Below are positions 2,763 through 23,578 of a stretch of 24,050 nucleotides of DNA, one piece after another. Position numbers and translations under genes: made by a program. This DNA is from a virus. Positions within the stretch are counted from its first letter, which is position 1; the number at the start of each line of letters is the position of its first letter. The notes beneath the pieces were generated by a model, which saw nothing but the letters and a program-made list of their open reading frames with translations, made no database searches and was not told the DNA's origin. Location of the stretch: positions 1 through 24,050 of the IMG/VR virus record IMGVR_UViG_3300025138_000349, one strand, 5' to 3'.

Positions 2763-2898
2763 TGACGCCAAGAAACAAGAGAAGATACGGCAAATGAAGA
2801 ACCAGCTTAGAAGTTCCCAAGCTGGTTCCGTTTACGCTCGAGCGAAAGAGGGCGTGACCGTCACGCTCAAGGACATGCCTTGGGCCGATGAGGGTTAG
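2749..2898 (+). CDS. 49-aa basic hypothetical protein at the end of the early cassette
   Basis: The start is the ATG at 2749, which overlaps the DUF6378-like gene by 14 bases and is preceded by the purine run GAGGGGG (2736-2742). Starting further upstream in this frame would only read through the neighbouring gene. The protein has a lysine- and glutamine-rich N-terminal helix (KKQEKIRQMKNQ) and a C-terminal part ending in WADEG. No family is recognised. Its TAG stop (2896-2898) overlaps the stop codon of the convergent giant gene. Its codons also contain a perfect 10-bp inverted repeat (2799-2828), described separately. A small noncatalytic phage protein is the safest description. Confidence 0.55.
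   Translation: MAKDDDAKKQEKIRQMKNQLRSSQAGSVYARAKEGVTVTLKDMPWADEG
2791..2828 (-). terminator. Candidate terminator of the late (minus-strand) operon, inside the 49-aa gene
   Basis: GAACCAGCTT (2799-2808) and AAGCTGGTTC (2819-2828) are a perfect 10-bp inverted repeat around a 10-base loop. Read on the minus strand, the hairpin is followed by TTCATTTG, a moderately T-rich tail. It begins about 67 bases past the stop codon of the giant gene, so it sits where a late-operon terminator is expected. The tail is weak, so rho-independent activity is inferred. Confidence 0.45.
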
Positions 2899-5800
2899 TA
2901 GCCGCTGCCGTAGCCGCTGCCGTAGCCGCTGCCGTAGCCACTGCCGCCGCCCGAGCCTGCGCCCTTTTTACCCGCCGCAGCATCAACAATATTTTCGACC
3001 ACCGACTTAGGTAGTGGGCCTCGGCTCACTACCTCTCTTACGCCTGCGCGTCTGATGCCGTTGGCTTCGTCACCATCCGCATATGAGCGGATCGCCTCTG
3101 CCACTGTGAGAGCATCGAAGAACAAGCCCGTGGATGGGCCAGCCACCGCTTCCATCACTCTGCGCTGACCGTATGCGCCATTGTCAGATTGCGTTGCGAC
3201 CTCGTACATCAAGTCGCCAAGCAGACCAAACCCAACGGACGCCATGAACCCATCGAATGTTTGACCCAACACGCGGTCAAGGTTCTCGTTGTCCTCGAAC
3301 CCCGTGTAAACAGTCTTGCTTAATCGACGGTCGCGGAGCGCATGTTCTCTGTTCTCCTCACCGCCTCGGCCCTGCACCTTATCTTTGAGGGCGACCGCCG
3401 CTGCACCAGCCACGGGAGCGGCTGTCAGAAGGGCTGCGAGAGGCGCTAGGCGGTTGTCTGAGGCACCGACAAACGCTTTGGCGAAGTTCCCTGTCCGATT
3501 GGCGACACCCTCACCAGCGAACGCCTCACCGAATGTGCCGCCGATCATGCGGCCCATCAAGAGCGGGAACGATTTAAGCTGCATAACCATCGCGCCAAGT
3601 GGCGTCTGACCCCAAAGAGGAAGGTCGTTGGGGTTGGGCGTAAAGATCATCTGGTTGACCAATTTAATAACCGAAGCCGATACCTCTTTGCTGCGAGGAT
3701 GTTCGCTCGCAGAGCCTCGGCTCTCCATAATCAGATCAATGTCGTCGTCAGCTTCCAAGCCTTTCAGTCCGTTCTGATCGAGGATGCGTTTGGCTATGCG
3801 TCCTGATCGTGAGTTCGGAACTTCACGAGCGATACGAGCCTGTGCTTTAAGGTGCTCGTAAGCAACCGCCGCACCCACATCCCGCATCATGTCAGTCCAA
3901 GGAGTTAAGAGAGTGGTGTTAAAGAAGCCCGACATGAACTGGGTTTGATCGACACCGTGAGCCATCGTCATCCGTTGATGCACCACGTTCTCGGTAGCTG
4001 CACCGACATTGCGGATCATCTCACGATAAGCCTCGCCCGTGTCCGTTTGCTTAGTATAGTTCTTGAGTGCTCGGGTGTATGATTTCAGATCGCCCGTGCG
4101 GATCAGTGGGAGAACCAAGTCAGGCAGTGACGTGAGAGTGGTGTAAGTGAGGAGCGTGACCGCGTTGATGCCGCGCAGCCACTTACTTGCGTTGGGCATA
4201 GAGTATAGGCCGTGCATCCCCTCGATGGGGCGGCGCATAGCTGCATTAAAGAAGCCTCTCGCGTGTTGCACATTCTCTGCGCTCGTGTGCTTGGTTAAAC
4301 CCTGCGTGTCGTACAGTGCATTGGCGATTGATCGCGCTCGCTTTTGAAAGTTCTGCCGCATTTGCTGGGCATTCGCTGTGCCTTGGAGGGCAGCTTCCAG
4401 TTGCAGCATAATGTTTTCTTCGAGGTCACGAGCCGTGCTGCCTTGACGCGCCATGTTAATAAGCTCGTCCGCTTTCTGCATCGCGGGGAACTGCTCTTTG
4501 AATGGAGCCATAAAGACATTGTGGTCGAAGGTCTTGTTCATCACACCCTGACCGTCACCGCCATTGCGCGAGTAGGTTGTTCGGATGATCTTGTTCGAAC
4601 TGAGCAAGGTTGCGATAGTTGCTTTCGCGCTGGGCGGTGAGCCCACGATTGCAGTGTAGTCGTGATACCCGTGTGCGCCCACCCCGAATGCCTCGGTCAT
4701 ATCAAGGCGGTGCTCGAGGTTGTCCGAGTATTTGGTCATGGCGACGAGAATGTCATTCTCGAGATACCCTGCGAGACTGTTGGGGTGGTTAAAGTCTTGG
4801 AACGCAGGGAACTCATCGAGGCGGATCATGCGTCGATAGTCAATGTGATCGTCGCCGTTGACGTTGCGTAGTTGCTGCGCTGGCTGTGACAGCACACCAT
4901 CCTCGTCAGTTAGCTTCGTGACAATACGCTCGGCAATCGTACGGGCGTGTCCATCTGGATGAGGGGCACCGCCTGTGGATTTCTGCTCGGTCTCGAGGTA
5001 CTCGGTCAGGCGTCTTGTGAAGTCGTCCTGATTGGCGAGGATCAGGTCTTTGCGCCACACTTGCGGGAAGTAGTTTTCCTTTAAGTCGCCCACAACGATG
5101 CCAGCCTTCCGCATTCTTGTGACGGCACTTCTCAGGTACGAGCGAACGTGATCGTAAACCTTTAGTTCTTCGCCGCCGAGGAACCTCTTTGCCTTGCTGT
5201 CTCGCAGGGCTGTGACAATATCCATGTTACTTTTGGGCTGAGATGTTCTGCGGTGGGGAGAGAAGCCAACGACTGAGGCGGCAGAGCCTCGGGCTGCGTC
5301 GATCATCTGACGTGGCCCATTATCCCAATAGCGCCCGAGTGCGCCCTTACTATCGGGCAGCTTTCTCATCATGCTCGTAAGGGGCATAAGGAACTTGCCC
5401 ATGCTTTCGTTCGTGCGCTCGAAGTGACCACCGCCACCCTTCTCTGGTTCGAAGTGGTTGGCGAGCCAATTCATGCCCGAGTTACGCATGATCGCGCTGT
5501 TGGTTTTGAGCGGGTTCCAGACGTTAGACTTTCTGATTATGTCCTTGCCGTCTTCGCCGATGTTGCGCCCGTTGGCTGCTGCAATCATCTGATCGAGTGT
5601 GCGGGGTGGCACACCGCCCGCCTCGAGAACTCGTGCAGCCGCGACAGCCATGTTGTCTGACGTGTCCTCTGTTATTGAGTTAATCAGCATTGAGTTTACG
5701 TTGACTTCATCATTGCCACCGCCGAGAAGCGGATCAGCCTCATCGAACATTGACGCTTTGATCGAGCGTATATCTGACGGGTTCAGCATTACTCGCTCGC

Positions 5801-8800
5801 CGTCAACCGCAACACTCGAGTAGCCCTGCTCGCGCAGAATGCGCTGGATATGCCTCGGGCCACCCGCTATTTCAGAAAGCATCGAATACATTTTGGAGGA
5901 CGGCATTACGCCCTGCAAAACGAGCGCGGCTTGATCCACGTCTATGTTTCCGCCGTTCTCCGCTACGTGTCGGCGTAACGCATTGAGAATTGACTGTACT
6001 GCGGGCGTATTCTTGCTGGTCTCTCTCGGGAAGATGATTGGGTTCTTGTCCGAGATAAACACGGGCTCGACAGATGTGATGTCAGTGATGCCCATTTCTT
6101 CAAGCTGCTCGGATATATCGTCATCCATTGCCCGTAAGACAAAGCGGTCTCCGCCTTGCCCCATCTTGGCGCGTACATCTCCAAGCGTTTCAAGCAACTC
6201 GGTGGCTATTGCCTTCTTGTCATCTGGGAGGGCGGCAACCATCTCGCCTGTTCTGCGGTGGATATGATCGACAGGTAGCTCGTCAACGTAAACGCCATCT
6301 CCCATGATTTCTGATGGCGCTCGTTTACTTTTGTAATAGACACTGACGTTTCCGCCTGTGAAGTTCCTAACCGCATCTATTTGTGCAGGGTTCATGCGCG
6401 ATACGACAGTGCTTGCGTAGCTAGTAGCAAGCTCGGAAGGAACCTCTTTGCCGTAGGTATCCGCCGCAGACGCATTCGTGATCTTTGCGCCTTCTTTCCC
6501 CCCGAATACTGAGCGAACAAACGGCACGGGAAAGCGGCGTCTTGCGGCAGGCTTGGCGACAATCCCATGCAGGATGTATGAGGCGGCCTCCATCATTTCC
6601 TCTGACAGTGACAGGGTGAAGTCATCAAACTTCGGGATATCGTCGCCTTCCATTGTGTCCATCATCTTGCGGAAGTCGGTCTCGACGCCATCGTCATCGA
6701 CCCAATCAGCAAAAATTCTGCCGAGCAATGTGTCTGCTGGTACGCCTGACTGACGAGCGTACTTGTCTATCAACACGCGGTTGGCATCGGTAACAACAGA
6801 CGTGTTATAAAGAGATTTGCCGATGTACTGCATACTTTGCGTGATGTCTTCGGACTTGCTTACGTTGGATGCAACGCCTCGCAACTCTTTGACAAACCCG
6901 TTCCATCCCTCGTCAGCTTTTGACGGCGGTAAGTCCACACCCAGACGAGCGAGGCGAGCCGCAATGGTGCGAGCCGCGTATGTCGTGTCCTCGTTCCGAT
7001 GGTTGATCTGGCTCAAGAATGTACGCATTGCAACATTAGCGTTTGCTGGCACACCGTCTTCCGTTCCGCTGCCAACATTTTGACGCTGCTCGACATCAAC
7101 AGCTTTGCTGATAGTGGGCGATTTTGCCACCTCCATAAAGTCAGCTTGATCATTGGAAGCTCTGCGGCGCTTGACTTCTACCCGTATAAAATCGCGGTCG
7201 GCCTTGGCCTTCTTTGTTTTTGTTGTGGTAGCCTTCGCGAGCGCCGCCGTAAGCGCATACTTGTCCATTCCTCCGTAACGCTGCTGCGCTTCCGAGATGT
7301 TTGCGTCAGACATGTCGATGGTGTCTTCGCCATTGATTATCTGGTTGACCCTGCGGTGCAGCTTTTTACCCAGCGCTGACGGTACGCCGACTGTCTGTTT
7401 CTTTTTATCAACGCCATCGGCAACGATATTACGCAAGTAAGCATCGAGAAGTTCGCCCATGCTTGCGGTCTCGTAGTTGATGTTCGCATCGTTGAACTTC
7501 TTAATGTCCGCCTGAGACATGATGGCGTTGGCTTTAGCCGAACCAGACATGATCTCCCGAGCGGCCTTAAAGTAAGCGGCTCGCTTGCGGTTGGCGTTTT
7601 GAATTACCTTTTTGAAGTTTACCTTTTTCTTTAGAACTTCGGGCGTGAAGTTGTTGCTCTTTCGGAGATCGAGAACTTCGTCTGACAGGCGGTACTCGGG
7701 AAGATCGCCACCCTCAATATCCATGAATTTCTCGTTCAAGCTGTCGAGCACGTTGTTGATTAAGACCTCAAGATCGCTCTCGTAGAACGCAACCATCTCT
7801 GTGTCGAAGCCCTCTCGAAAGGCTTGGCCCTCGATGACGCCATCACCCTTTTGGTTGACGTACTGGTTCTCTTTATAAAGCATCTTCGAGAGAGTGTCGG
7901 CTGCCGCCTTCATCTTTCTGTTGAACTTCTTGGTTGCTTGGAACGGGCCAGTGGTGGTGCGATACTCTTCCTGCTTCTTGAAAGCAGATATCTTGTTGTC
8001 CTTTATCGTGTTCGCCATTCCGTGAAACTCGTGAGCCACTTTAAGCATCGCCTCGGCTGCCATCTGTGGGTCTCTCACGCTCTCGTCTTGACCCATGATT
8101 TGTCTGTACTCTTGATGCGCGTCATTCAACTGGACAAAGCGCATCCGTATTGCTTGGCCTAAACGTGTCGAGCCGTCCACAGGCATGTGGAACTTGACGC
8201 GCTTGGCTTCCTTGCGGCTCACAATCATTTTATCGAAGAGCGGTTCTAGCTCAAGATCGTGTACTTTTTTTCCGCTCATGTAAGACCAAAGCATTTTGAC
8301 TAGCTTTGTGACTTTATTCCAGAGCTTTTTATTCTGGGGGAAGTAAACCGCGTCATGCCTTCTCTGCATGTATAAAGCGAACTGGTTGGCAAACATTTCT
8401 TGCGGGCTTTCGGCCCCGTTAAACGCGCCTATTTCCGCCCCGAAAAGTTCGTCTTCGGGGTTAGTCACTTTAATAAATGGGGTGCGTTGCTCGACCACAG
8501 TGCGACCGTAGGCGTCTTTGCCACCGCCATTAAACGTACCGTTTGCTGCGTAATACTTATCCATCTGCTGCCAGAACTCGAGCTTCATGTCGGCATTCAT
8601 CAGATTTCTGTAAGCCCAATGGCCCATCTCGTGCATAACAAGGAAGGTTCCCGACATGCCGCCTCGATCTCCATTAGGAAGAACCGCAACACCTGGGTTC
8701 CTTCTGCCTTTCATGTCAAGGTTGATAGAGTTTGTTTTGTTCAAAACGGAGTGGACGGCCTGATACGATTGGTTGGCCGTTCCTGTGGTGTCTACAAAAT

Positions 8801-11800
8801 TTGGGGCAACGTCCCCGTCTTGAATAACGGTGTCAAACAAGCGGTTAATTTCTTTTGTTTCCACATCGCTCAAGTGCCGAGTGATCTTGTTAAGGCTGGC
8901 CCTTGACGCATCCACCTTGTCGTTAGGCAACTTGATGCCGCTCGGAGCCATCTTGTCGATAATAGAGTACAAGCCCGTTAAGGCTTTGATCCGCGTTTGG
9001 ATCGGGATTTCAATTACGTCACCATTAACGCTCGTGAACTTATTGACCCAATGGTCGCTCTCGAGCCTTTGAAGGACAGTCCATAACTGCACTATGTTTA
9101 TGGTCTGGGTCTTAAGGACATCTTTATTGTTCGATATGCCCTGAGTTGGATAGGGTGTGTTTGGATCGAACTGATACGCTTGCTCTGGGCGGCGAACATT
9201 ATTGTTGTTTCTCACAAGCATCATTGCATTGTGCAGGCGGTCAAATAAATCGGGCTCCTCTTCCGCCAACTCGCTTAGTTTTAGCTGGGTGTTATAGCCA
9301 TCTTGTGCGTAATCAACCATCGGGGGCGGAGCTTCGGGAAGGTCAGCGCGTACCGCACCGTCGAGCAGGTTGTTATCGTTTAGCGGGTCGAAGTTAGCGA
9401 GCAATGTTTGAACATCAGTCTTCTGCTGACGGGCTGGCTTACCGTTGATTGTCTCTGGTATGTACCCAATGTACCAATCGTCGGCGTCTTTGCCGCCAAG
9501 GATATCGTCAAGGGACTTGTTGTTCTTGACTTGGTATGCGCTCGCCATACGAACATTGTCTTTGGGCGGGCTGCCATCGTCGGTGGCTTCATTTAGCACA
9601 CGGCGGATCAAGACTGCTATCTTGCCATCTCGAGACACGAACCCTTTGACCTTGGACTTCGGCTTGCCGTTAGGCTTGACCTCCACAACAGGCTCGGGCT
9701 TGGGGGTGCGAGCGTTAATGCGGCGCTTCTCGCGCAGGTACTTGTCGAGGTCGCCGTGCCCACCGTCCAAGTCGCCGTCACCCTCATACCTTTTCTGGGC
9801 TGCCTCGAGTGCGGCTTCTGCTTCGTCTGCATTGGCAAACATCTTCTCGGGCTTAACTGGCGGGCTGTCTGTAGTCTTGCCCGCCCAAGCTGGGCCGAAC
9901 TGAGCCTTCATTGCCAATTCTTCGGTGGCAAAAACCTTTATCGTCCATCCTGATTTGGTCTTAATAGGTACACCAAAGAGCATGTCGCCTTTGGTAGCCT
10001 TACCCATCACGCCGACCTTGCCGCTCTTGATGCCCACTGCTTGCTCGCCGCCTTGCGAGGTGAAGCGGTAAACGGCCTTCTGAACCTTGAGCCCAGCATC
10101 TTTAATTGCGAGAGCGAGAACCTGCTGTTTGTTGAACGAGCGAGGGTCTAAGTCACGGACACCATCGGTCACGGTAAACCCGTCACCAATGTCCAAGCCC
10201 CTTCTGAACAGGCTGGATATCTTACTGCTTACTTTCCGCTCGCCCTTGCTGTTGACGTACGTTTTGAATACACGACCACCCACAGGATCATTCTCGAGCG
10301 CTGCGCCTGCCTTGGCTGTCGAGCCACCCACGCGGTTGCCGCCCGAGGACTTTTGCGAACTGGCTAGGTCGGCCTCGCGGTTCAGAACAAGGTCTTCGGA
10401 TTTGATGCGCTTGATTTCTTCTGCGCTTTCGTCCGCTTTGACTGTCTTGCGTACCTTATCCCAGCTATTTATGCGGCGCTTGATGGCAGCATATACTTCG
10501 TCCGTTACCTCGTCCTTGTAGGCCACGAGATACTTGTTGATTAGTATTTTCCTGTCTGCGCCGAGGTAGCGTTTGCTCGAAGCTGATGCCTCGATGATGT
10601 CCATAAATATGTTGTCCGCAACATCACTGACAGCCTTGTCACCCGCCGCTTGCTCTGGAGTTCTGCCGTCAAGATAAGCCTGCCGTCTTGCCGCTTCGCT
10701 GTCCTCAACCTCCGTTACGGTTTTGCGCTTGCTGCTCTGGTATTGTTTCTTCTCACCGCCACGAGCCGAGGCGATCTCCATGATTTTTTCAAAGCCATTT
10801 GTGGTAATGCGCCCGTCATCGGTCAGCTTAATTTGACCGCCTTTGATTAGCTTACCAATGTCGTCCTCGGTAAGAGGCGGGTAGTCACCGAACTCTTCCG
10901 CATTCTTTGCATATATCGCAAGACGATTGCGGAGTTTCGCCATCTTCTTGTCTTGTGTCTCGGGCTTGACGCTAAAGATAATGTCGGCGGCGCTGCCTTC
11001 ATTGTCAGGTATTTCAGCGCCAATCCGCCTTACAAAAAGCTCGGCCTTGGTTTCGTTAGTACCCCTGTTGTCCGCGTTTACATCCGAAGGCGGGGGCGTT
11101 TCAACGTCAAGGTCAGGAGTGTCATCCACATCAACGTCAGGAGTGTCAGTGTCAGCGCTTGCAGCCTTTGGCTTTGCGGTTGGTTTTGCAGATGACAAGT
11201 TGGGAACGAACTGCTTTTCGGGAGCGCCGAGACGAGATGATGCCCACTGGCGAACCTGTTGCCTGCCTTTTGCGGACAGAGCGCCCGCTTTAGTTATGTC
11301 AATCTCACCCGCATCGATCAGCCTGCCGATCTCATCGTCAGTAATTGGCTTGAGGCTTGTGCCGTTTTCTTTATTCAGCTTCTCTATTGTTGCTGCGTAA
11401 CGCGCTCGCATTTCGTCGAGAGACTTAACCCACTTATGAGGCGCGTCTTTCTTAGTCTTGCCTGCGGCCTTTTTCGTAATCGCAGTCGTGTACGTTGCGG
11501 TGCCATCGCCATCAGGGATTTCAAACTCAACGAAGCGCTTGTACGCCGCTGCCCTCTCGGGGCTTGCGGGCTCTTTAGGTGGGTCGGCTGGCGGTGTGGT
11601 TCCAGCGTCCGCGCCGACATCATCATCCATGTCCGCGTCTGATACTTCATCATCATCAGGTTTGGCGTTGGTGTCAGTGTCGTCCGCTGTCTTGTTGCCT
11701 GCGCCCGTGGCGGCATTGGGATCGGGGGTGCTGCTTGCGCCTCGAGCGGCAGCCCTTGTCGCGTCAAACCCTCTGCGCCACATGCGAGCGGCTTCCTCGC

Positions 11801-13103
11801 CGTGGACAGATTGGTAGGCGGCTTGCTGTGCAGCAACTTGCTCGTCACTCAAGTCCTTCATAGTGCCGTTGCCGTCACTGTCGTACTGCGTAGATTTTGC
11901 GCCTTCCTTCTCGTGACGAGCCATGCTTGGGTTGTTAGCGCTCGTTCCACCCGCGTTGGTTCCCGAGCCGCCCGTGTTAGTGCTCGAGCCGCCCGTGTTG
12001 GGGGGAGGGGTTGCCGCCGCTGCGGGCGGAGCGTTGCGTGTGTTGGCAGTCCAGAACTGGCTATCAAGTTTTTTCTCGACATCAACTAGGCGAGTTTGGA
12101 ACTCAGCCTGCAAGGCCACCTTGTCTTCACCCGTCTTATCAGCGTTGGCTATTTTTTCGCCAAGCTCGTCAAGCGCGTTTTGGTCGCCCTCAACTTCCCT
12201 GACGTGCATTTCTATGTCGGCTCGCTCGGCCTGCGCGTCTGCGAGATCATCTTTAAACTCGGCGCGGCGAGCTAAGAGGGTGTCATCGGCAACCTTGGCT
12301 TGAAGGTCGGCTTCCATGCGGCCTAGCTCTAACAGTCGGGCGTCGATTGTAGATGCGAGGCGGGAATTGTTGCGCCAGTTTAAGGCTGCATCAGCCTGAC
12401 TGCCCGAAGCGAACCTACCGATTACGCCGCCGAGAACGCTCCCGACACCCGCTTCGATAGCCGCGGCTTTCCCCGTTTGCGTGTCGTCAAATTCTTCGCG
12501 CAGTCCTTGCTGGATTTCACGAGACTGTTGGAGCCTGTCGAAGCCAGCGCCGAGACCAGCGCCGATAGTGCCCTCGATCAATGCGCCTTCTTTTGCGCCT
12601 TGATACAGACCCGCAACTCGGGCAGCCTTTCGAGACTGTCCTGACGCTCGAGCAGCCTGTGCTACTTTGCCAACCTTCGAGAGCTTGCTGGCAACGCCAG
12701 CGTACGGGACAAAGTTAATTGGATCGGCGATTATCGCTCCGCCGTAGTCTCCGAGTTGATCCCAGATAGTGCCTCGTGAGGGCGCTCGCTGCCATGCTGC
12801 TGCAAGACGGGTGTGAGTTGCCTTGTCGGCCTCACTGCCCATTTTGTACTTGCCCATGTCATAGCCAGCCGCACCGAAGTTGCTGTCGATCCAGCGTCGA
12901 TCAGAGTACCACTCGTCCAGCATCTCGCTCGTGGAAGAAAATGACTTGCCTTGGCTTGCGTAATACGCACGGATGTCTTTCTGGAAGTCCCTGTTTTTAA
13001 TAAGGTCGCTGCCAAAAAGATTGTCGTAGCCAGATACGCTATCAAATGTTTTGTTAGCGTTGTGTGTCTTAATAGTTTTAAGAAAGCTCGAGATGTCGGA
13101 CAT
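2895..13103 (-). CDS. Giant 3402-aa polyvalent virion/ejection protein with zincin and ADP-ribosyltransferase-like segments
   Basis: Probably packaged in the head and ejected into the host with the DNA. Order of parts: hydrophobic helices (about 121-140, 174-190, 215-232); coiled coil (about 255-350); Gly/Thr/Asn and acidic linkers (359-515); a duplicated domain of about 100 residues (524-633 and 693-790) joined by an Asp/Pro linker; a zincin motif HEMGH at 1491-1495 with a likely third ligand E1569; a segment at about 2235-2470 with YY (2256-2257), GDGVY (2268-2272), a KNP block (about 2350) and a terminal NPSDIRSI block, as in ADP-ribosyltransferase domains of polyvalent proteins; a long C-terminal region with hydrophobic helices (about 2972-3003, 3220-3240); and a (GSGY)4 tail. 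Position as third and largest of three ejection-type genes suggests a T7 gp16-like role, but T7 gp16 is only about 1318 aa. No transglycosylase, helicase, methyltransferase or convincing RNA polymerase motif was seen. GGAG (13115-13118) is the only ribosome-binding site. Confidence 0.85.
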   Translation of the reverse strand: MSDISSFLKTIKTHNANKTFDSVSGYDNLFGSDLIKNRDFQKDIRAYYASQGKSFSSTSEMLDEWYSDRRWIDSNFGAAGYDMGKYKMGSEADKATHTRLAAAWQRAPSRGTIWDQLGDYGGAIIADPINFVPYAGVASKLSKVGKVAQAARASGQSRKAARVAGLYQGAKEGALIEGTIGAGLGAGFDRLQQSREIQQGLREEFDDTQTGKAAAIEAGVGSVLGGVIGRFASGSQADAALNWRNNSRLASTIDARLLELGRMEADLQAKVADDTLLARRAEFKDDLADAQAERADIEMHVREVEGDQNALDELGEKIANADKTGEDKVALQAEFQTRLVDVEKKLDSQFWTANTRNAPPAAAATPPPNTGGSSTNTGGSGTNAGGTSANNPSMARHEKEGAKSTQYDSDGNGTMKDLSDEQVAAQQAAYQSVHGEEAARMWRRGFDATRAAARGASSTPDPNAATGAGNKTADDTDTNAKPDDDEVSDADMDDDVGADAGTTPPADPPKEPASPERAAAYKRFVEFEIPDGDGTATYTTAITKKAAGKTKKDAPHKWVKSLDEMRARYAATIEKLNKENGTSLKPITDDEIGRLIDAGEIDITKAGALSAKGRQQVRQWASSRLGAPEKQFVPNLSSAKPTAKPKAASADTDTPDVDVDDTPDLDVETPPPSDVNADNRGTNETKAELFVRRIGAEIPDNEGSAADIIFSVKPETQDKKMAKLRNRLAIYAKNAEEFGDYPPLTEDDIGKLIKGGQIKLTDDGRITTNGFEKIMEIASARGGEKKQYQSSKRKTVTEVEDSEAARRQAYLDGRTPEQAAGDKAVSDVADNIFMDIIEASASSKRYLGADRKILINKYLVAYKDEVTDEVYAAIKRRINSWDKVRKTVKADESAEEIKRIKSEDLVLNREADLASSQKSSGGNRVGGSTAKAGAALENDPVGGRVFKTYVNSKGERKVSSKISSLFRRGLDIGDGFTVTDGVRDLDPRSFNKQQVLALAIKDAGLKVQKAVYRFTSQGGEQAVGIKSGKVGVMGKATKGDMLFGVPIKTKSGWTIKVFATEELAMKAQFGPAWAGKTTDSPPVKPEKMFANADEAEAALEAAQKRYEGDGDLDGGHGDLDKYLREKRRINARTPKPEPVVEVKPNGKPKSKVKGFVSRDGKIAVLIRRVLNEATDDGSPPKDNVRMASAYQVKNNKSLDDILGGKDADDWYIGYIPETINGKPARQQKTDVQTLLANFDPLNDNNLLDGAVRADLPEAPPPMVDYAQDGYNTQLKLSELAEEEPDLFDRLHNAMMLVRNNNNVRRPEQAYQFDPNTPYPTQGISNNKDVLKTQTINIVQLWTVLQRLESDHWVNKFTSVNGDVIEIPIQTRIKALTGLYSIIDKMAPSGIKLPNDKVDASRASLNKITRHLSDVETKEINRLFDTVIQDGDVAPNFVDTTGTANQSYQAVHSVLNKTNSINLDMKGRRNPGVAVLPNGDRGGMSGTFLVMHEMGHWAYRNLMNADMKLEFWQQMDKYYAANGTFNGGGKDAYGRTVVEQRTPFIKVTNPEDELFGAEIGAFNGAESPQEMFANQFALYMQRRHDAVYFPQNKKLWNKVTKLVKMLWSYMSGKKVHDLELEPLFDKMIVSRKEAKRVKFHMPVDGSTRLGQAIRMRFVQLNDAHQEYRQIMGQDESVRDPQMAAEAMLKVAHEFHGMANTIKDNKISAFKKQEEYRTTTGPFQATKKFNRKMKAAADTLSKMLYKENQYVNQKGDGVIEGQAFREGFDTEMVAFYESDLEVLINNVLDSLNEKFMDIEGGDLPEYRLSDEVLDLRKSNNFTPEVLKKKVNFKKVIQNANRKRAAYFKAAREIMSGSAKANAIMSQADIKKFNDANINYETASMGELLDAYLRNIVADGVDKKKQTVGVPSALGKKLHRRVNQIINGEDTIDMSDANISEAQQRYGGMDKYALTAALAKATTTKTKKAKADRDFIRVEVKRRRASNDQADFMEVAKSPTISKAVDVEQRQNVGSGTEDGVPANANVAMRTFLSQINHRNEDTTYAARTIAARLARLGVDLPPSKADEGWNGFVKELRGVASNVSKSEDITQSMQYIGKSLYNTSVVTDANRVLIDKYARQSGVPADTLLGRIFADWVDDDGVETDFRKMMDTMEGDDIPKFDDFTLSLSEEMMEAASYILHGIVAKPAARRRFPVPFVRSVFGGKEGAKITNASAADTYGKEVPSELATSYASTVVSRMNPAQIDAVRNFTGGNVSVYYKSKRAPSEIMGDGVYVDELPVDHIHRRTGEMVAALPDDKKAIATELLETLGDVRAKMGQGGDRFVLRAMDDDISEQLEEMGITDITSVEPVFISDKNPIIFPRETSKNTPAVQSILNALRRHVAENGGNIDVDQAALVLQGVMPSSKMYSMLSEIAGGPRHIQRILREQGYSSVAVDGERVMLNPSDIRSIKASMFDEADPLLGGGNDEVNVNSMLINSITEDTSDNMAVAAARVLEAGGVPPRTLDQMIAAANGRNIGEDGKDIIRKSNVWNPLKTNSAIMRNSGMNWLANHFEPEKGGGGHFERTNESMGKFLMPLTSMMRKLPDSKGALGRYWDNGPRQMIDAARGSAASVVGFSPHRRTSQPKSNMDIVTALRDSKAKRFLGGEELKVYDHVRSYLRSAVTRMRKAGIVVGDLKENYFPQVWRKDLILANQDDFTRRLTEYLETEQKSTGGAPHPDGHARTIAERIVTKLTDEDGVLSQPAQQLRNVNGDDHIDYRRMIRLDEFPAFQDFNHPNSLAGYLENDILVAMTKYSDNLEHRLDMTEAFGVGAHGYHDYTAIVGSPPSAKATIATLLSSNKIIRTTYSRNGGDGQGVMNKTFDHNVFMAPFKEQFPAMQKADELINMARQGSTARDLEENIMLQLEAALQGTANAQQMRQNFQKRARSIANALYDTQGLTKHTSAENVQHARGFFNAAMRRPIEGMHGLYSMPNASKWLRGINAVTLLTYTTLTSLPDLVLPLIRTGDLKSYTRALKNYTKQTDTGEAYREMIRNVGAATENVVHQRMTMAHGVDQTQFMSGFFNTTLLTPWTDMMRDVGAAVAYEHLKAQARIAREVPNSRSGRIAKRILDQNGLKGLEADDDIDLIMESRGSASEHPRSKEVSASVIKLVNQMIFTPNPNDLPLWGQTPLGAMVMQLKSFPLLMGRMIGGTFGEAFAGEGVANRTGNFAKAFVGASDNRLAPLAALLTAAPVAGAAAVALKDKVQGRGGEENREHALRDRRLSKTVYTGFEDNENLDRVLGQTFDGFMASVGFGLLGDLMYEVATQSDNGAYGQRRVMEAVAGPSTGLFFDALTVAEAIRSYADGDEANGIRRAGVREVVSRGPLPKSVVENIVDAAAGKKGAGSGGGSGYGSGYGSGYGSGY
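2898..2945 (-). repeat. Four tandem 12-bp repeats encoding the (GSGY)4 tail
   Basis: The 12-base unit GTAGCCGCTGCC occurs four times head to tail, the fourth copy with one change (GTAGCCACTGCC). On the minus strand they encode Gly-Ser-Gly-Tyr four times, immediately before the stop codon. The first base of the array is also the last base of the opposing gene's stop. Such an array can change length by replication slippage without a frameshift. Confidence 0.9.
3009..3040 (+). terminator. Candidate terminator of the early (plus-strand) operon, inside the giant gene
   Basis: On the plus strand AGGTAGTGGGC (3009-3019) pairs with GCTCACTACCT (3024-3034) around the tetraloop CTCG, giving an 11-bp stem with one G-U pair. 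On the opposite strand that pair becomes a C-A mismatch, so the fold favours plus-strand RNA. It lies about 110 bases past the last early stop codon and is followed by CTCTTA, a poor U tract. It is a reasonable but unproven terminator. Confidence 0.42.
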
Positions 13104-13167: not shown

Positions 13168-16100
13168 TTATTGAGATGACTTTTCCTGCTCCCAAAGCTC
13201 GAGAAGCGCAGGATCGTTAGTTTGCAATGCGTTTATAAGCTGTCTCCTCGCGCTGTCGCCTGTGTACCCAAGCTCTGCGGCTACGGTTGCCGCATTATCT
13301 CTTATCCATCCCCTCATTTGCAACTGGTCGTCAGCATCGGGCTGCTCATCATCTCCGCTGGTAAACAGACGCTTTATCGCAGCTACGGGATCAGGGCCAA
13401 CGGTTCTTACTTCGCCGTTGGGTGGCAGGTTCAGTGTTTCTGCAACAGCAGCCGCAGCGCTTGTTGGTGTTTGAAATGCTGTTTCTGGTGGCGCTGTCGG
13501 TGGTGGATTGCCCACCCCACCGCTGGTCGCCTCTTCGAGTTGGCGAACAGCCTCGCGGTTTTGTATTTGTCTTTGTAGGTCGCCTTCCAACCAATCCCGA
13601 TAGGCTTGGACATTATCATCGGCAGATAATCCCGTAGCGTCCTTGTATGCCTGCGTTGGCGTCTTCTTGATACCGTTGGGCGGTGTAATTCTATTCCATT
13701 CTGTTACAACTCCTTGGATGCGTTCGGCCTCGACCTTCTCGTCTTCCGCTATGCGTTTATCTTCTAGCTCAGTAAGCGAGGCCACTTGCATTTCAGCGTC
13801 ATTCACATAGCCCTCAATCCCCGCCCTTATTTCTTCGAGGTAGGCTAATTGACCTTGAAGGGCTTGGACGTTGCCATTGATCGTTGATCTCATTTGCTCG
13901 GCGCTCGCGCCTTTGCCATACATATCGTCAGCGCCAGCCTGCCGCAAATTGCCGATCTCTCGCTGTAGCTCCAACATCTCGCCATGCAGCGCTCTCGTAA
14001 GCTGACGAGCCTCACCGCTGCCGTTGATCTCTTGCAGTAGCTCTTGGTAAATGGCGAGCTTCGTGAAGTTTGGCACATCGACGTTTGGTAAGTTATTCGC
14101 CGTGCTAAGTTTGCGTATCGCAGCGTCAATCTTTCCCAATGCGCCAGTGAAGATAGGCTCGAGAGCAGAAAGGCTCGGATGCTGGCTAAAGTCGGCAGAC
14201 GCTACCCGACCATTAACGTCAAGCACAGTGCTTACACGATTAGCAAGTACACCAGATCGTTCGGCGGCATCGGTGTAAGCTGGATCAACCACGTTGTATT
14301 GGCTGTTGACGTACGCTCTACGATTGAGTTGGTATTGCGCCTTGAACGCTGCCAAGTCCTCCGCTCTGTCCTTCACATCCATGTCCTTGAATGTAACAAT
14401 TCCCGTCTCACGCATAGCCGCCAAGAATGCCGACTGCTCGATGCCGCCGTACTCACCCATGAGTAGCCCGCCTTCCATATCCATAAGGCTCGCGTACACC
14501 GCGTCCCTCACAACCTCCAAGTTTGTGCCGCTATCTTTGTTATACAACGGGATTACTTCTAACCCTTCTTCGGTTTCCTTTTGGCCCAGTAACAACTCGT
14601 TCATAACGTCCATTATAAGCTCGTTCGTGGCTGGCAGGCCAAGGGTATTAAAGACACTTTGGATTTCGTTGCGAACGTCAGAAGTAACTTGAGCGCCCAC
14701 TACCGCGACCTTATCTTTGTCGAGGTCTCCAAGTATGCTGGGTATCATTAGGATGGGTTCGAATATTTCGGCATTAGTATCCATCGGAATTAGGGAGCGA
14801 TTACCCGCCTCAACCTTCGCTATGACTTCGGCGATTGTTTCGTTTTCTCGGGCGTTGATTGCCCTGCGAGCCTTCTCGAAAGCTGCGTCGAAGCCTCCGT
14901 TCGCAAGAGCTGTGTACTCTGCTTTCTTGGCGGGGCTAATGGTGATCCCCAGTGCCGTCAGGTCGCGCTCAAACTTTTTCAAGAACTCCTCTCTGCCAGC
15001 GTCAGCCGCGCCTGCAAAGTCAAAGTTTGCATTCTCAGATTTGTTTGCGGCCTGCGTGATGGTAGCCATTAACTCACCCATAGTGACAGCGTACCTATCC
15101 GTAATACGAGCTTTTTGTTCGGGGGTAAGGGTGACATCTGTTTTCAGAGTTGCCTCCATCTTCGCCTCGAATGCCGCAACCGCGTCTTCCTTGCTCATTC
15201 CCGCTTGGGCAGATGGCATAAGTTCGCCTTCTTCCACAGCGACCGCAACATTTCGGGCTACTTCCTCTTCTTGTATCGTCTTCAACTCGCTCAATCTTGT
15301 CGCGATATTTGCGTCCGCTGTTGTCGTGTCGAACTGCAAAGCAACTGGGCTGCCTTTGAAGGTGTCTTTCAAAGCGCTGATGGCTCTGTCGTACTCGGGT
15401 TGCGTTGTGGCACTTGCCGCGATTTCGTTTGCTAGTTGAGTAAATCTCGCATCATCTTCGGTCTTGAGTTTGTCGAGCCTGTCTTGCTCTATTCCAGCGT
15501 TTATTTCGTTGGAGCTGTTAATTCTTATCCTGCCTCTCACCCCTTCATCGCCTGCCTCACGCAACAGTGTAGTTTTAAATTCTTCATAGGCTGCTGGCGA
15601 CATGGTTTGAGCAGCCTTCTCAAGTCGGCTCATGTAGTCTTTCGCGAGCGCGTCTTCGCTGCCCTCGATATTAGCTTGCACTCGATTATATGCGTCATCG
15701 AGCCAAGCGACATCCCCATCCTGATTTTGGTCAGGAAATTCGAGAAGGAATGACGCCCTTGCCGTTTGCCAATCCTCGAGGGTCTTGATGTTTTTTGCGG
15801 CGTTGAAGGCATACCTTGACGCTTTATTTGTCGCGGCTTCTGCCGCATCAGAAATCGTTGTAGAAAGAACGGCCTTGGGTGTTCCAAACGCGCCGCTCAC
15901 CCTTAACGCCTCGTAAGCATCTGGATATTGGTTCGCGATTGCCTCTATTCCTACGTCCGCGCCCGCCTGAGTTTGGTTTGGTGCCGTCAGAATTTTTGTC
16001 ACTTCGGCGAGAACGATGCCTTCATTCTTTTTGTCCTGCCGCACATACGCGCCCTTGAACTGGTTGGTGAACTTAGCGCCCCATATGCCAGCTTTTGTGT

Positions 16101-16641
16101 TGAGGCTCTCGAACGCGCCTTTGGATGGGTTTCTGAGGTAGTCGTCAATTACGCGAGCGTTGTTCTCCTGCCAATCACCCCAAGCCTTGTCGCCAGCCCG
16201 CTTGTAAACCGCGCCAAACATCTTTTCGTCAACTAGCCCATAAGAGTTCATCTGGGCTTTGAAGGCGGCTATTTCTTCGTCTTTGGTGCCGTACATGCCT
16301 GCCATAGCGTCACCCAAGCTAATGATGTCTGTAAGGCTTTGGCGAGCGTCCTGTGCTTTTTGACGCTTTGCTGCCTGCGCTGCCGCTGCGTCCTGCTTCG
16401 CTTTTGCGTCTCTGTACTTTTTGACTTGGCGCTTCATCGTTTCTTCGGTCGGAATGCCCGACTGTAGCCCGCGACTGTTGCCCGCAAGGTTGCCGTAATA
16501 TTCCTTACGCTCTGCAACGCTCGCGTCTGGATTTGCCCTTATCCATTCTGCATAAAGCTGTGCGTTCTGTGCGCGGCGATCTTTGCGTTTCTCATCTGCG
16601 CCGACGAAGGCGTTTGTAAAACCGCCGAGTGCTAGAGCCAT
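13168..16641 (-). CDS. 1157-aa putative internal virion (ejection) protein
   Basis: Large, alanine- and glutamate-rich and predicted almost wholly helical. The N-terminus is basic (about residues 18-100, with KRKDRRAQN and KKYRDAKAKQ). The middle is long helical repeats without a recognised enzyme motif. A coiled-coil stretch lies at about 890-1000, a Pro/Ala/Thr linker at about 1045-1090, and a small C-terminal domain of about 60 residues follows. Size and place between the 341-aa and 3402-aa genes parallel T7 gp15 (747 aa), the middle member of the three-protein ejectosome; that parallel is inferred from order, not sequence identity. AGGAG lies a few bases before the ATG. No signal peptide or membrane segment is evident. 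Open antisense frames under this gene are shadows of its Ala-rich codons. Confidence 0.7.
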   Translation of the reverse strand: MALALGGFTNAFVGADEKRKDRRAQNAQLYAEWIRANPDASVAERKEYYGNLAGNSRGLQSGIPTEETMKRQVKKYRDAKAKQDAAAAQAAKRQKAQDARQSLTDIISLGDAMAGMYGTKDEEIAAFKAQMNSYGLVDEKMFGAVYKRAGDKAWGDWQENNARVIDDYLRNPSKGAFESLNTKAGIWGAKFTNQFKGAYVRQDKKNEGIVLAEVTKILTAPNQTQAGADVGIEAIANQYPDAYEALRVSGAFGTPKAVLSTTISDAAEAATNKASRYAFNAAKNIKTLEDWQTARASFLLEFPDQNQDGDVAWLDDAYNRVQANIEGSEDALAKDYMSRLEKAAQTMSPAAYEEFKTTLLREAGDEGVRGRIRINSSNEINAGIEQDRLDKLKTEDDARFTQLANEIAASATTQPEYDRAISALKDTFKGSPVALQFDTTTADANIATRLSELKTIQEEEVARNVAVAVEEGELMPSAQAGMSKEDAVAAFEAKMEATLKTDVTLTPEQKARITDRYAVTMGELMATITQAANKSENANFDFAGAADAGREEFLKKFERDLTALGITISPAKKAEYTALANGGFDAAFEKARRAINARENETIAEVIAKVEAGNRSLIPMDTNAEIFEPILMIPSILGDLDKDKVAVVGAQVTSDVRNEIQSVFNTLGLPATNELIMDVMNELLLGQKETEEGLEVIPLYNKDSGTNLEVVRDAVYASLMDMEGGLLMGEYGGIEQSAFLAAMRETGIVTFKDMDVKDRAEDLAAFKAQYQLNRRAYVNSQYNVVDPAYTDAAERSGVLANRVSTVLDVNGRVASADFSQHPSLSALEPIFTGALGKIDAAIRKLSTANNLPNVDVPNFTKLAIYQELLQEINGSGEARQLTRALHGEMLELQREIGNLRQAGADDMYGKGASAEQMRSTINGNVQALQGQLAYLEEIRAGIEGYVNDAEMQVASLTELEDKRIAEDEKVEAERIQGVVTEWNRITPPNGIKKTPTQAYKDATGLSADDNVQAYRDWLEGDLQRQIQNREAVRQLEEATSGGVGNPPPTAPPETAFQTPTSAAAAVAETLNLPPNGEVRTVGPDPVAAIKRLFTSGDDEQPDADDQLQMRGWIRDNAATVAAELGYTGDSARRQLINALQTNDPALLELWEQEKSSQ

Positions 16642-16650
16642 AACGCTCTC

Positions 16651-17676
16651 CTATTTATTTGTTGCGCCCGTGATCGGGTTGTAATCGGTAGCCCTGTCGA
16701 GCCAAGTGCCGAACGCGCTGCCAGCGTTATCAGCGGCGGTAGCCATTCGGTCGCTCGCACTATTTGCTGATGTCAGCGCGGTGCCGAAGCCCGCTAAGTT
16801 CGCGCCATCTGCGGCAAACTTGTAAGTTCCAGCGGCTTCGTTGCCTTTGCTAATGGCGTAGTCTCGGAACACAGAGCTTGTGTTATTCATTGTGTCGAGG
16901 CCCGTCACGTAATCGTTTAGGTACGTGTTGTTTCTCATGCCTTGCAGGTTTTTAATGTCGTTTATTGCGCCGCCATACATGCCGATCTTGCCGTCCGCAA
17001 ACTCCATCCCGTAGCGTCCGCCCGCAATGTCATCGCCCGAGCGAGAGGTGCTGTAGTCGAGGTTGCCTTTGATGTAGGTCTGAGCGTCAGACATCGCATC
17101 AATTAAGTTCTGGTTGTATGCTTGGGCCTCCATGTCAGTGAGGCTTTTCTCCATCTGGATAGCGTATGTCGAGTTCTCCAAACCTTCGGGTATCTTGGCA
17201 CTCGCTCGAGCGCGAGCTTCTGCCACTGCTCTGTCTGTGTTTTGGTTGCGGAGATCAGCAAAGCGAGCGATCATCTCGTCTTGCTCTGATCGGCCTTGGT
17301 TGTAACGAGAGCTTGCGTTGTTTCGAAACCTGCTCTCGTCATTGATGAGCGTGGTTTGATAGCCCGTCGAGCGGTCAACAACCTGCGAGGCGTTTTGTAA
17401 CTCTTCAAGCTCACGAGCGTTCGAGAACATGCCGCGCATACTGTCAAACTGGTCTGCGCTTATCTGGTCGAAGCCGCCGAAGTTCTCGTAAGCGGCTTCA
17501 ATCGCTGCCCGCATTTCTTTAGAGCCACTGTCGTAAAGTGACATGACCCGCTCGTTACGAGCGATCTCGGCAGCGGTGAGTGCCGACTGCTCGTTAGATG
17601 CTGTGTTGGCTCGCTCGTTTGACTTGATCATATTCAAGCCAGTGAGCACCGCCATTCCTGTATTAAATACACTCAT
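16651..17676 (-). CDS. 341-aa putative internal virion protein (first of three ejection-type proteins)
   Basis: The N-terminus has a short, mildly hydrophobic stretch (VFNTGMAVLTGLNMI), followed by helical, Ala/Asn/Gln-rich sequence: SALTAAEIARNERVM near residue 31 and a long helix near 120-190 (RDEM..., VAEARARASAK). The C-terminus is Ala/Gly/Ser-rich with little charge, ending in DYNPITGATNK. In T7 and P22 the smallest ejected protein forms the outer-membrane part of the DNA conduit and precedes the larger ones, so this is a candidate T7 gp14-like component, though longer (T7 gp14 is 196 aa). The start follows AAAAGGAT, and the gene ends nine bases before the 1157-aa gene. Family identity is not certain. 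Confidence 0.6.
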   Translation of the reverse strand: MSVFNTGMAVLTGLNMIKSNERANTASNEQSALTAAEIARNERVMSLYDSGSKEMRAAIEAAYENFGGFDQISADQFDSMRGMFSNARELEELQNASQVVDRSTGYQTTLINDESRFRNNASSRYNQGRSEQDEMIARFADLRNQNTDRAVAEARARASAKIPEGLENSTYAIQMEKSLTDMEAQAYNQNLIDAMSDAQTYIKGNLDYSTSRSGDDIAGGRYGMEFADGKIGMYGGAINDIKNLQGMRNNTYLNDYVTGLDTMNNTSSVFRDYAISKGNEAAGTYKFAADGANLAGFGTALTSANSASDRMATAADNAGSAFGTWLDRATDYNPITGATNK

Positions 17677-20490: not shown

Positions 20491-22056
20491 TCAGACATTT
20501 GTGATGACGCAGGCCAAGGTTACTTCGATATCAGTGAGCGAGCTTTGCGATGTTATTTCGAAACCGATCTCTCGTGAGGCGGTGGTCGCGTCTACAGCGA
20601 TTGACGCCGAGAGGTTCTGCTCGGCAAGCGTTGAAGATACAGAAATCACATCGCCAGCGTTGGTGCCGTTGACGCGAAGCTGAATGTTGCAAGTTCCCGA
20701 GGTTGACTTAACGGCTACCGCATCAATCCGTATGTTCTGCTTAAAGGCACGAGTTACTTTCTTCACTCCGTTAGCTATCGAGCCAGAGGCTTGAAAGTAA
20801 AACGAGCGAGTTGCAAAGGTATCGGGTAGCTGGGCAACAGGAAGTTTACCTGTGCTGTCGAGGCCAGCAACGCCGTCCGCTGCTCCCATATAGGTTTTGG
20901 GAACCAAAGCGGTTTGGTCAACATTGCTGAACTCCAAGCCGCCGCCTGTCGAATTGACACGAAGGAACTGCAAGGCATTGGAGGTCGCGAAGGCTGGGAT
21001 GCCTGTGTCTGGTGAGGTCAGTAGCCAGCCCGTACCGTTATAAAACTTTAGGACGTTGGGATTACTTGATGTGTCCACCCACATGTCGCCAGAGTTTGCA
21101 GTCGAAGGCTGCGAGGCGGACACGTAGACGCGGCCTCTGTTAGCAAGGAGGGTTGAGATGCCACTGACCTTAGCTTGGGGGATTTCATTGTCAGTTACAG
21201 CAAGCCTTGCGAACGGAATTAAGCCGCTAGTGTTCGTGAATTTGTCTTCGGTCATCAAGCCAGCGACACGAACTTGTGCCGTATCCTCAACGATCATAAA
21301 GGTGATAATATCGTTTACCGACATCCCCGAAGTGAACGTGATAGTGTTGCCGCTGGCCTGTTGAGTATAGTCGTTACTACCACCTTCTCGTTGCAGGACG
21401 CCATTTCGATATACGAGAATAGCCTGCGTGTCCGTGTGAACGAAAGGGAATACAGCCTGTGAAGCAGAAGATGTAATCTCTGTTCGTGTGAAGCCACTGT
21501 TGTTTGACGCTTGGACTTTATAGATAGTTATAATATCGCCCGCGGATGTCGCCGAACCCAGCGTAACCGTGTTCGCTGTTGAGCTGTTCGAGAAGGTCGT
21601 TGTCGCTTGTAGAGCGCCGTTGATATACACAACAATAGCGTCTGTTGCGTCATGGGCGAACGAGAACGCTGTGGTGCCCGTTGGGTAGGGTATTGAGCCG
21701 CTGATAGTGGCGTTGACAACGTGATCCACCCGTGCCGAAAACAGGGGTGCTCCGATTGTTCCTAAGTCTAGGCCCGATGTGCCGCGCAATTCAGCAACCG
21801 TTGCCAAGCCCGTCCAGCCCGTCTCGCTTTCAGTGTACGTTCCCACTCTGTATTGCAGACCCGCAATGCTGTCGTTCCGAAGCTCGACGGGAGCGATTAG
21901 CTTGCCCGTGCTGTCGAACAGTATTTTGACTAGCTCGGCAAGCGTGTTGTCGCCAAGCTCTGCGGCGTTGAGATAACGAACAATGTTCTCCACATCGGCC
22001 CCGATGTTGCCGCTTGATGTATGATTTCCAGGGTACAGTACCTTGAGACGAGCCAT
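20491..22056 (-). CDS. Tail fibre/receptor-binding protein with two internal beta repeats
   Basis: This 521-aa protein likely forms the trimeric fibre that contacts the host. Residues 1-105 look like a virion-attachment domain (LGDNTLAELVKILFDSTGKL, then GLQYRVG and RGTSGLDLG). Two repeats of about 70 residues follow at 113-181 and 185-257: AFSFAHDATDAIVVYINGAL is echoed by VFPFVHTDTQAILVYRNGVL, and SAGDIITIYKV by SVNDIITFMIV. Next come fibre-style blocks, a GDMWVDTS-to-FYNGTGW stretch (323-344) and LDSTGKLPVAQLP (399-411), and a beta-rich C-terminal domain (about 415-521) that probably includes the tip. AAGGAGAAA precedes the ATG, one base after the upstream stop. No chaperone gene or catalytic spike motif is apparent. 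Confidence 0.78.
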   Translation of the reverse strand: MARLKVLYPGNHTSSGNIGADVENIVRYLNAAELGDNTLAELVKILFDSTGKLIAPVELRNDSIAGLQYRVGTYTESETGWTGLATVAELRGTSGLDLGTIGAPLFSARVDHVVNATISGSIPYPTGTTAFSFAHDATDAIVVYINGALQATTTFSNSSTANTVTLGSATSAGDIITIYKVQASNNSGFTRTEITSSASQAVFPFVHTDTQAILVYRNGVLQREGGSNDYTQQASGNTITFTSGMSVNDIITFMIVEDTAQVRVAGLMTEDKFTNTSGLIPFARLAVTDNEIPQAKVSGISTLLANRGRVYVSASQPSTANSGDMWVDTSSNPNVLKFYNGTGWLLTSPDTGIPAFATSNALQFLRVNSTGGGLEFSNVDQTALVPKTYMGAADGVAGLDSTGKLPVAQLPDTFATRSFYFQASGSIANGVKKVTRAFKQNIRIDAVAVKSTSGTCNIQLRVNGTNAGDVISVSSTLAEQNLSASIAVDATTASREIGFEITSQSSLTDIEVTLACVITNV

Positions 22057-22057
22057 T

Positions 22058-23578
22058 CTATTTCTCCTTGTGCATTAGAAATGCAAACGAAATGACCGTC
22101 AGGTCTGTGTCCACATCTTTTTCTTCCGTCCGAAAACGCATTCGTACGCCTCGGAAAGTATGGTTAAACGGGTAAGTGTAGTCATGCTTGAGGGGAGCAT
22201 CACCCCATCTTTTGTCGCCCTCTAAACGGTCGAGCACGACTTCGAGAGAGTGCATGTCGCGACCTTCCTCATCGGTAAAATCGATAAAGAAGCTGCCCGT
22301 ACCAGTTGCTTGCACTACAAATGAGTGGGTGCGCTTTGTGCCGATGAAGTCACCAAGCCAGAGGACGGGTGTTTCGGCTACCATTTGCGAACGGCGGAGA
22401 TCAGCTAACCCAGTTTCTTGATCGAATGTTCGTCTAGTGCTTTCATAAACACCATCCGAAGTTCCGAAAACAAGGCGACCTCCCAAGAACGAACCACACC
22501 TCGGAAGGAGCGTATCGCCAAGCTGGAAGTTTACCATCTCGTATCCCGAGCGGAAGTTCATCGAGAGGCGCTGTGTAAGTTTGCCGCCCGCTCGTGGGAA
22601 AAAGACATGATAAGCCTGCTCGTCTTGGTCAAAAACTGCCGAGATCGTTCGCGGATCAGGCGTTGACCTTACGAGTTCTTGATACAGCGGCTCGATCTCG
22701 TCAGATAGAGATGCCTCTGCAATGGTGATCCCGTTTGTCTCGTTACGCATAATCGAGTGAATACCTCTGCGAGAACAGAACAGAAGGTCGGAGCCAGCGT
22801 TAATGATCGTGCCGTGTGAGATGCACCCGATACGAAGGTTGGCTCGGCTGTCTAGCTGCCATTCCTCGAAGCTGGGGTCGATGATGTAAACGAGCGTTTG
22901 GTCTTGCGTGAACACGGCAAGGCGGTTGGCCTCAAATGTGCCTAACCCAATAATCTGGTCGGCGGTGCCTATCAAGTTCGAGATGTCGATAAAGGCGGCC
23001 CGTGTTACTTCGTCAGTGGTGGCTTCTTCTTCAAGGAAAATGTCAGGAGCATCGACGCGGCTGAACTCGATTACTGTTGGCCTGTCTTTAAATCCCGCGA
23101 CCGCAAGGCGGCGCTGTATGGGAACGCCGAAGGCTGGTTTTATTGATGCGGTGGATGTCGAGAATTGAAACCCGTCATACTTATACATCTTGGTGTCGCC
23201 AGAAAAGATATGCACTTGACCCTTGAAGTTGGTCATGTGGACAATGGCGTCCTTTTCGTACGCGCTTACAACTACGTGGTCGCGGTCAGATCGTAAGTGT
23301 GTGGCGGCTGCGTCTGTCTCGGCGTAGACAACGCCCTCTCGGCTGTAGAAGCGGAGAGCCTTAATGGGGAAGTTGTTTGATCGGCTGTATTTGAAGAAAG
23401 CGGGGTCTCTAATTAGCTGGCCTCGATAATCCACATAGCAGTTTTCCAAGTTGTAAAAGTTTTGCTCCTCCTCAGTCTCAAGAGCAGTGATGTCACGAGA
23501 CCGATCAATACCCCGAAAACTATAATAGGTTTTCGAGACCGTTTTTACTGCGATTGGAGAGTAAGCGAGGCGACCCAT
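22058..23578 (-). CDS. Tail hub/nozzle protein (P22 gp10- or T7 gp12-like beta-propeller)
   Basis: This 506-aa beta-rich protein fits the tube segment that joins the adaptor ring to the tail tip and closes the DNA channel. Propeller-like blades are suggested by repeated short strands: VHIFSGDTKMYKYDGFQ, RLAVFTQDQTLVYI, LLFCSRRGIHSI and RLVFGTSDGVYES. The segment IGCISHGTIINAGSDLLF is typical of this class, and the length is close to P22 gp10 (472 aa) and below T7 gp12 (794 aa). Start and stop abut the neighbours: the adaptor's TAG is directly followed by this ATG. The order adaptor, hub, fibre supports the call. Which of the two families it is closer to cannot be settled by eye. Confidence 0.7.
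   Translation of the reverse strand: MGRLAYSPIAVKTVSKTYYSFRGIDRSRDITALETEEEQNFYNLENCYVDYRGQLIRDPAFFKYSRSNNFPIKALRFYSREGVVYAETDAAATHLRSDRDHVVVSAYEKDAIVHMTNFKGQVHIFSGDTKMYKYDGFQFSTSTASIKPAFGVPIQRRLAVAGFKDRPTVIEFSRVDAPDIFLEEEATTDEVTRAAFIDISNLIGTADQIIGLGTFEANRLAVFTQDQTLVYIIDPSFEEWQLDSRANLRIGCISHGTIINAGSDLLFCSRRGIHSIMRNETNGITIAEASLSDEIEPLYQELVRSTPDPRTISAVFDQDEQAYHVFFPRAGGKLTQRLSMNFRSGYEMVNFQLGDTLLPRCGSFLGGRLVFGTSDGVYESTRRTFDQETGLADLRRSQMVAETPVLWLGDFIGTKRTHSFVVQATGTGSFFIDFTDEEGRDMHSLEVVLDRLEGDKRWGDAPLKHDYTYPFNHTFRGVRMRFRTEEKDVDTDLTVISFAFLMHKEK

Follow-up and report, generated by a model that had tools for sequence, protein, structure and literature searches.

The 24,050-base IMG/VR virus record analysed here (hereafter the window) encodes a 3402-aa protein that is probably a giant podophage ejection protein of the T7 gp16 class, with a conserved scaffold at its two ends, an inner cargo whose zincin-like metallopeptidase would act around entry, and other enzymes that have become degenerate. 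The features on which this reading is built are collected in Table 1.

Table 1. Features of the giant ejection-type protein and of the neighbouring late genes in the window (amino acid numbers refer to the giant protein).
Feature	Window coordinates	Strand	Basis or remark
3402-aa giant ejection-type polyvalent protein, whole gene	2895..13103	-	ORF, conservation, selection
N-terminal ejection module, aa 30-264	12312..13016	-	homology to pelagiphage internal virion protein D N-terminus; relatives match PHROG 342 at ~281-474
Duplicated domain, first copy, aa 521-667	11103..11543	-	self-alignment
Duplicated domain, second copy, aa 690-828	10620..11036	-	self-alignment
Zincin-like metallopeptidase domain, aa 1384-1640	8184..8954	-	invariant HExxHW...E; predicted structure
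HEMGH zinc-binding motif, aa 1491-1495	8619..8633	-	third ligand Glu1569 at 8397-8399
Degenerate second zincin region, aa 2030-2200	6504..7016	-	HExxH intact in relatives, absent here
ADP-ribosyltransferase (ART) remnant, aa 2225-2470	5694..6431	-	catalytic [YF]HGT lost; omega 0.07-0.12
C-terminal ejection module, aa 2500-3380	2964..5606	-	most conserved part; relatives match PHROG 342 at ~531-1209
Strongest hydrophobic segment, aa 3219-3239	3387..3449	-	hydrophobicity
1157-aa protein, gp15 position, upstream of giant gene	13168..16641	-	family-specific; no known-family matches
341-aa protein, gp14 position, upstream of giant gene	16651..17676	-	no known-family matches
Tail tubular B / stabilization protein homologue	22058..23578	-	44% to CRP-810 gp42; marks late structural operon

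A preliminary description made from the DNA alone had pointed to one uninterrupted 10.2-kb gene, the last of three ejection-type genes of rising size, and both observations hold. The giant gene is a single minus-strand frame that begins with ATG and has no internal stops, and the three genes encode 341, 1157 and 3402 aa in the order of transcription. The protein is conserved at 96-98% aa among six IMG/VR contigs and at 22-40% in 25 of the 27 other full-length members, and its dN/dS between near relatives is below 0.46 in each part; this conservation and selection indicate that the frame is not a chance ORF. The giant gene is the last and largest of a gp14-gp15-gp16-type cluster in a late operon, in which the gp14 and gp15 identities are taken from gene order alone. 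The part of this operon upstream of the giant gene also encodes homologues of CRP-810 tail proteins, and the giant gene has the virion-gene neighbourhood that serves as a criterion for polyvalent proteins.

Megablast of the window against deposited phages gave no near relative. The window phage is placed near CRP-810, a Roseobacter phage that serves as the type of a proposed family of marine phages (PMC11288001). Searches with the giant protein and with an alignment of its C-terminal part recovered a family of 3.0-3.4-kaa single-ORF proteins from CRP-810-type marine phages, present on about 200 IMG/VR contigs; on 27 contigs a full-length homologue is encoded by a single ORF, 2987-3414 codons long when counted from stop to stop. 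Poseidonocella sp. HB161398 contains a prophage-like copy of 3277 codons, and there the same stretch (L175, 2651-12484) also holds an antisense open frame of 3195 codons, presumably an effect of GC content. The CRP-810 counterpart (gp36/gp35/gp34; PMC11288001) belongs to the same protein family and is colinear with the window protein, and its phage, which has been cultured, is in the same family as the window phage. It differs from the window protein in keeping both zincin motifs and the ART motif and in being deposited as three overlapping ORFs (L008, OR671924). The breaks between these ORFs (10062-10130 and 16066-16112) fall at two module borders, the second at a 31-bp tandem duplication; two relatives (L172 and L173) have one frame where the CRP-810 homologue is broken, and either an assembly artefact or genuine splitting of the gene could account for the breaks. 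In a further member (L058, 6330-6560) the protein is split into two ORFs within the ART remnant by a small indel relative to L061.

The assignment to the gp16 class comes from PHROG 342, the T7 gp16 ejection-protein family, whose profile T7 gp16 fits from end to end. In a per-frame search, relatives of the giant protein match this profile in colinear pieces within single ORFs, outside the transglycosylase part (profile positions 281-1209). Specifically, one record (L071) has pieces at profile positions 311-416, 547-675 and 1025-1066 in one reading frame; the first two are about 2,112 residues apart in the protein and 131 positions apart in the profile, and the second and third about 393 residues and 350 positions. 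Another (L074) matches at 544-681 and 800-1209 (E 8e-13), L093, L079 and L088 behave similarly, and isolated C-terminal segments of relatives match with E values down to 1.7e-19. The C-terminal module of the window is 32-59% identical to that of the relatives that match PHROG 342. The N-terminal module is homologous to the N-terminus of the pelagiphage internal virion protein D (hhalign probability 99.7, E 3.5e-27; tblastn 2e-14), which has only this module, and not the C-terminal one, in common with the giant protein. The window protein gives no direct match to PHROG 342 or to Pfam, the links running through its relatives, and T7 gp16 as a single sequence gives no significant comparison with the giant protein. 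Default hmmscan of whole proteins loses the PHROG 342 match, which returns in the per-frame search, a loss that we provisionally attribute to HMMER filters acting on long low-complexity sequences. PHROG 342 also matched cellular genomes in control searches, probably because of the transglycosylase part of the profile, which the matches of the relatives do not use. Pfam and PHROG give no transglycosylase or lysozyme match in the window protein, and the PHROG 342 matches of the relatives start at position 281 or later. T7 gp16 carries an N-terminal lytic transglycosylase (aa 1-156), and P22-like members are without the domain (PMC8954989), so that it does not define the gp16 class.

We regard the gp16-class identity of the giant protein as well supported by homology. 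The colinear order of the PHROG 342 pieces, together with the gap of about 2,112 residues across 131 profile positions, indicates that extra material sits at one site between the N- and C-terminal modules; judged from these alignments, the cargo lies inside a gp16-like scaffold and is not appended to its end. The earlier suggestion that a core protein in the gp16 position had been fused with effectors thus stands for the gp16 assignment, by homology as well as position, whereas the cargo appears to be inserted and not joined to an end. The giant protein resembles the T7 gp16/internal virion protein D family in the colinear homology of both modules, in the two smaller core-type genes that precede it and in its late operon. 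It differs in its length (3402 aa against 609-1337 aa in a surveyed set; PMC8954989), in its internal insert of about 2,100 residues and in being without the N-terminal transglycosylase.

Giant proteins of this size class and gene position are also known from Schitoviridae, and a diverged N4-type virion RNA polymerase would account for the size, the zincin and an N-terminal ejection domain. The N4 virion RNA polymerase gp50 has about 3,500 aa, is encoded by the last of three ejection genes, and carries a polymerase and an HExxH domain between an N-terminal and a large helical C-terminal domain (PMC12633501); some of its relatives carry an ART (PMC5512222, PMC12633501). One relative of the giant protein matches the virion RNA polymerase family PHROG 2206 with its N-terminus at 9e-4. 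However, no member scanned matches an RNA polymerase family, a polymerase domain is not detectable in the giant protein, comparison of N4 gp50 with the giant protein yields nothing significant, and the C-terminal module matches gp16 and not the virion RNA polymerase. We consider an N4-type identity very improbable and rejected it on the missing polymerase family match and profile similarity.

The preliminary description had recognized zincin-like, ADP-ribosyltransferase-like, duplicated and membrane-prone regions in the protein. The zincin-like region was confirmed: the HExxHW motif, a downstream Glu and then FA..F are invariant throughout the giant-protein family, and the HExxH is found in 27/27 full-length homologues. 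These 27 were recovered by their C-terminus, so that the motif was not a selection criterion; a later set of homologues found by the HExxH motif itself is not counted as independent support. Structure prediction, proposed earlier as a check, gave a confident AlphaFold2 model of the zincin-like domain (45 sequences; pLDDT 84.7, pTM 0.85) in which an N-terminal helix and strands precede the helix with HExxH and then the helix with the Glu, the succession that was expected and that has been described for polyvalent-protein metallopeptidases (PMC5512222). Foldseek matched this model to two predicted proteins of uncultured phages, both named after domains of large polyvalent proteins (E 1.4e-7 and 1.5e-6). 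Against solved structures, Foldseek found no significant match for this model or for one of aa 1300-2490, so that no solved zincin confirms the predicted zincin fold; the aa 1300-2490 segment, folded as one piece, has a pTM of 0.36. Profile searches of the PDB with four segment alignments gave nothing beyond coiled-coil matches that look like chance and weak matches to a zincin helix. Omega for this first zincin, from comparison of the window with its two nearest relatives, is 0.17-0.36.

The ADP-ribosyltransferase-like region stood in part. Pfam ART-PolyVal (PF18760) gives no match on the window protein, and the region is recognized only through relatives, 7/20 of which match ART-PolyVal (best E 1.8e-9), as does CRP-810. 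The YHGT...G.G.Y motifs are carried by CRP-810 and a set of relatives, the His motif occurring in about 23 relatives. In the window the [YF]HGT site reads YYKS, and relatives with the loss have FYxx. In a tree of the C-terminal module, the non-intact ART state forms one 21-row clade that includes the window (SH-aLRT 100), plus a few separate rows. The region is homologous to an ART, as had been proposed, but the catalytic His motif has been lost in the window clade. The second zincin follows a similar pattern, its HExxH being present in CRP-810, L085, L088, L171 and others and missing from the window.

For the ART remnant, the comparisons of the window with its two nearest relatives give an omega of 0.07 and 0.12. 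Both the first zincin and aa 1640-2020 (0.31-0.45) change more quickly than the remnant; these estimates rest on few substitutions. By this measure the ART remnant is under purifying selection and not decaying freely. An enzyme still active with a changed active site would be a further way to read such selection, as well as the retention of the C-terminal strand motif of the ART region, but the His-containing motif is replaced and, compared with intact members, the region is shortened, and we hold continued activity to be improbable. The window ART is a homologue of Pfam ART-PolyVal that has probably become a pseudoenzyme. One criterion for a polyvalent protein is the presence of at least two biochemically disparate catalytic domains in a single polypeptide; the window keeps catalytic motifs of the first zincin only, and some relatives keep those of both zincin and ART. 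Since the ART and second zincin motifs have been lost in the window clade, the set of effectors in the preliminary description was overstated for the window, where one zincin remains: such a set appears mostly to be a property of relatives, with one likely active enzyme here.

Pfam, PHROG and PADLOC gave no matches on the window giant protein. The two copies of the duplicated domain align with a score of 121, compared with 34 +/- 6 (maximum 67) in 500 shuffles, in agreement with the duplication proposed before, and the membrane-prone region proved to be one strong hydrophobic stretch within the C-terminal module.

On the reading that we favour, the scaffold would comprise the N-terminal ~235 and the C-terminal ~880 residues, the parts with homology to gp16-type proteins, and would enclose a cargo segment of about 2,100 residues whose constant element is the zincin-like metallopeptidase. 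As suggested by the T7 gp16 family, the giant protein would be a late product, presumably carried in the internal core, that is ejected into the host together with the gp14- and gp15-position proteins to give a trans-envelope DNA channel; in T7 itself, gp16 inserts into the inner membrane and its C-terminal part protrudes towards the cytoplasm (PMC8954989). The zincin would most likely act around entry, perhaps cutting the polypeptide itself, so that cargo is set free or the channel trimmed, or else cutting a host protein. The second zincin and the ART would be former enzymes, their motifs kept in related phages and degenerate in the window, and the ART region would be retained under purifying selection as a probably non-catalytic part. 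Packaging, ejection, proteolysis or processing, and counter-defence are functions that we infer for the giant protein; our literature search found no virion proteomics on its family.

It is also conceivable, although we think it unlikely, that the protein is an ordinary if very large ejection or core protein, in which the zincin serves solely to mature the protein at assembly, the remaining insert being structural filler or channel, with no effector or counter-defence role. The zincin is the sole catalytic centre conserved throughout and is always in cis with the ejection scaffold, the window clade has lost the ART and the second zincin and yet kept the gene, and DdrB of phage P1 is processed before packaging (PMC5512222). 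Filler would hardly explain why relatives across a deep clade keep the ART motifs, however, and a counterpart in Aeromonas phage phiA008 carries a nuclease domain. This 2050-aa protein (gene0066; L177, 9223-15375), annotated as hypothetical, has an SNase domain (E 7.9e-7, above the cut-off), a HELGH zincin and a C-terminal module shared with the giant protein, so that zincin and ejection module occur together again, this time beside a different enzyme. Tentatively, the T7-gp16 class may have a cargo slot between its two ejection modules, a single internal site at which a large family of marine phages carries exchangeable enzyme domains, about 2 kaa in all. These would be grouped around an unchanging zincin that releases or trims them during entry, the enzymes being lost or made non-catalytic over time.

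The giant protein shares with the polyvalent proteins of Iyer et al. 2017 (PMC5512222) a zincin-like peptidase, a homologue of the polyvalent ART, a duplicated domain and a late-gene neighbourhood. It differs in being built into a T7-gp16-type ejection scaffold, of which a text search of that paper gave no mention, and in the degenerate state of its ART and second zincin in the window clade. Polyvalent proteins with zincin and ART were already known, as was an N4 virion polymerase with a zincin and sometimes an ART (PMC5512222, PMC12633501); the literature searched, from which most subscription journals were outside scope, makes no mention of a gp16-based polyvalent protein or of a gp16-type scaffold with internal cargo. 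The giant protein joins the literatures on podophage DNA-ejection machines and on polyvalent effectors, and a polyvalent protein placed by homology on a gp16-type scaffold points to a specific means of delivery that can be tested. Cultured CRP-810, whose homologue retains both zincin motifs and the ART motif, would allow packaging, processing and modification of the host to be measured. The ART of the window clade, which looks like a conserved pseudoenzyme, illustrates that domain resemblance does not equal activity.

The surroundings of the gene offer some minor observations. Among relatives, the length of the gp15-position protein differs greatly, from 618 to 1170 codons, and this protein has no known-family match, and a putative fibre protein (20491-22056) matches Pfam DUF4183 barely above the cut-off and the CRP-810 tail fibre at 45%. 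The holin and endolysin genes of CRP-810 occupy the place 3′ of the giant gene and are absent from that place in the window. The giant gene and a plus-strand early-type ORF (2686-2898) end tail to tail with a 4-base overlap, and the C-terminal end of the giant protein (window 2895-2960) is a GSGYGSGYGSGYGSGY repeat tail.
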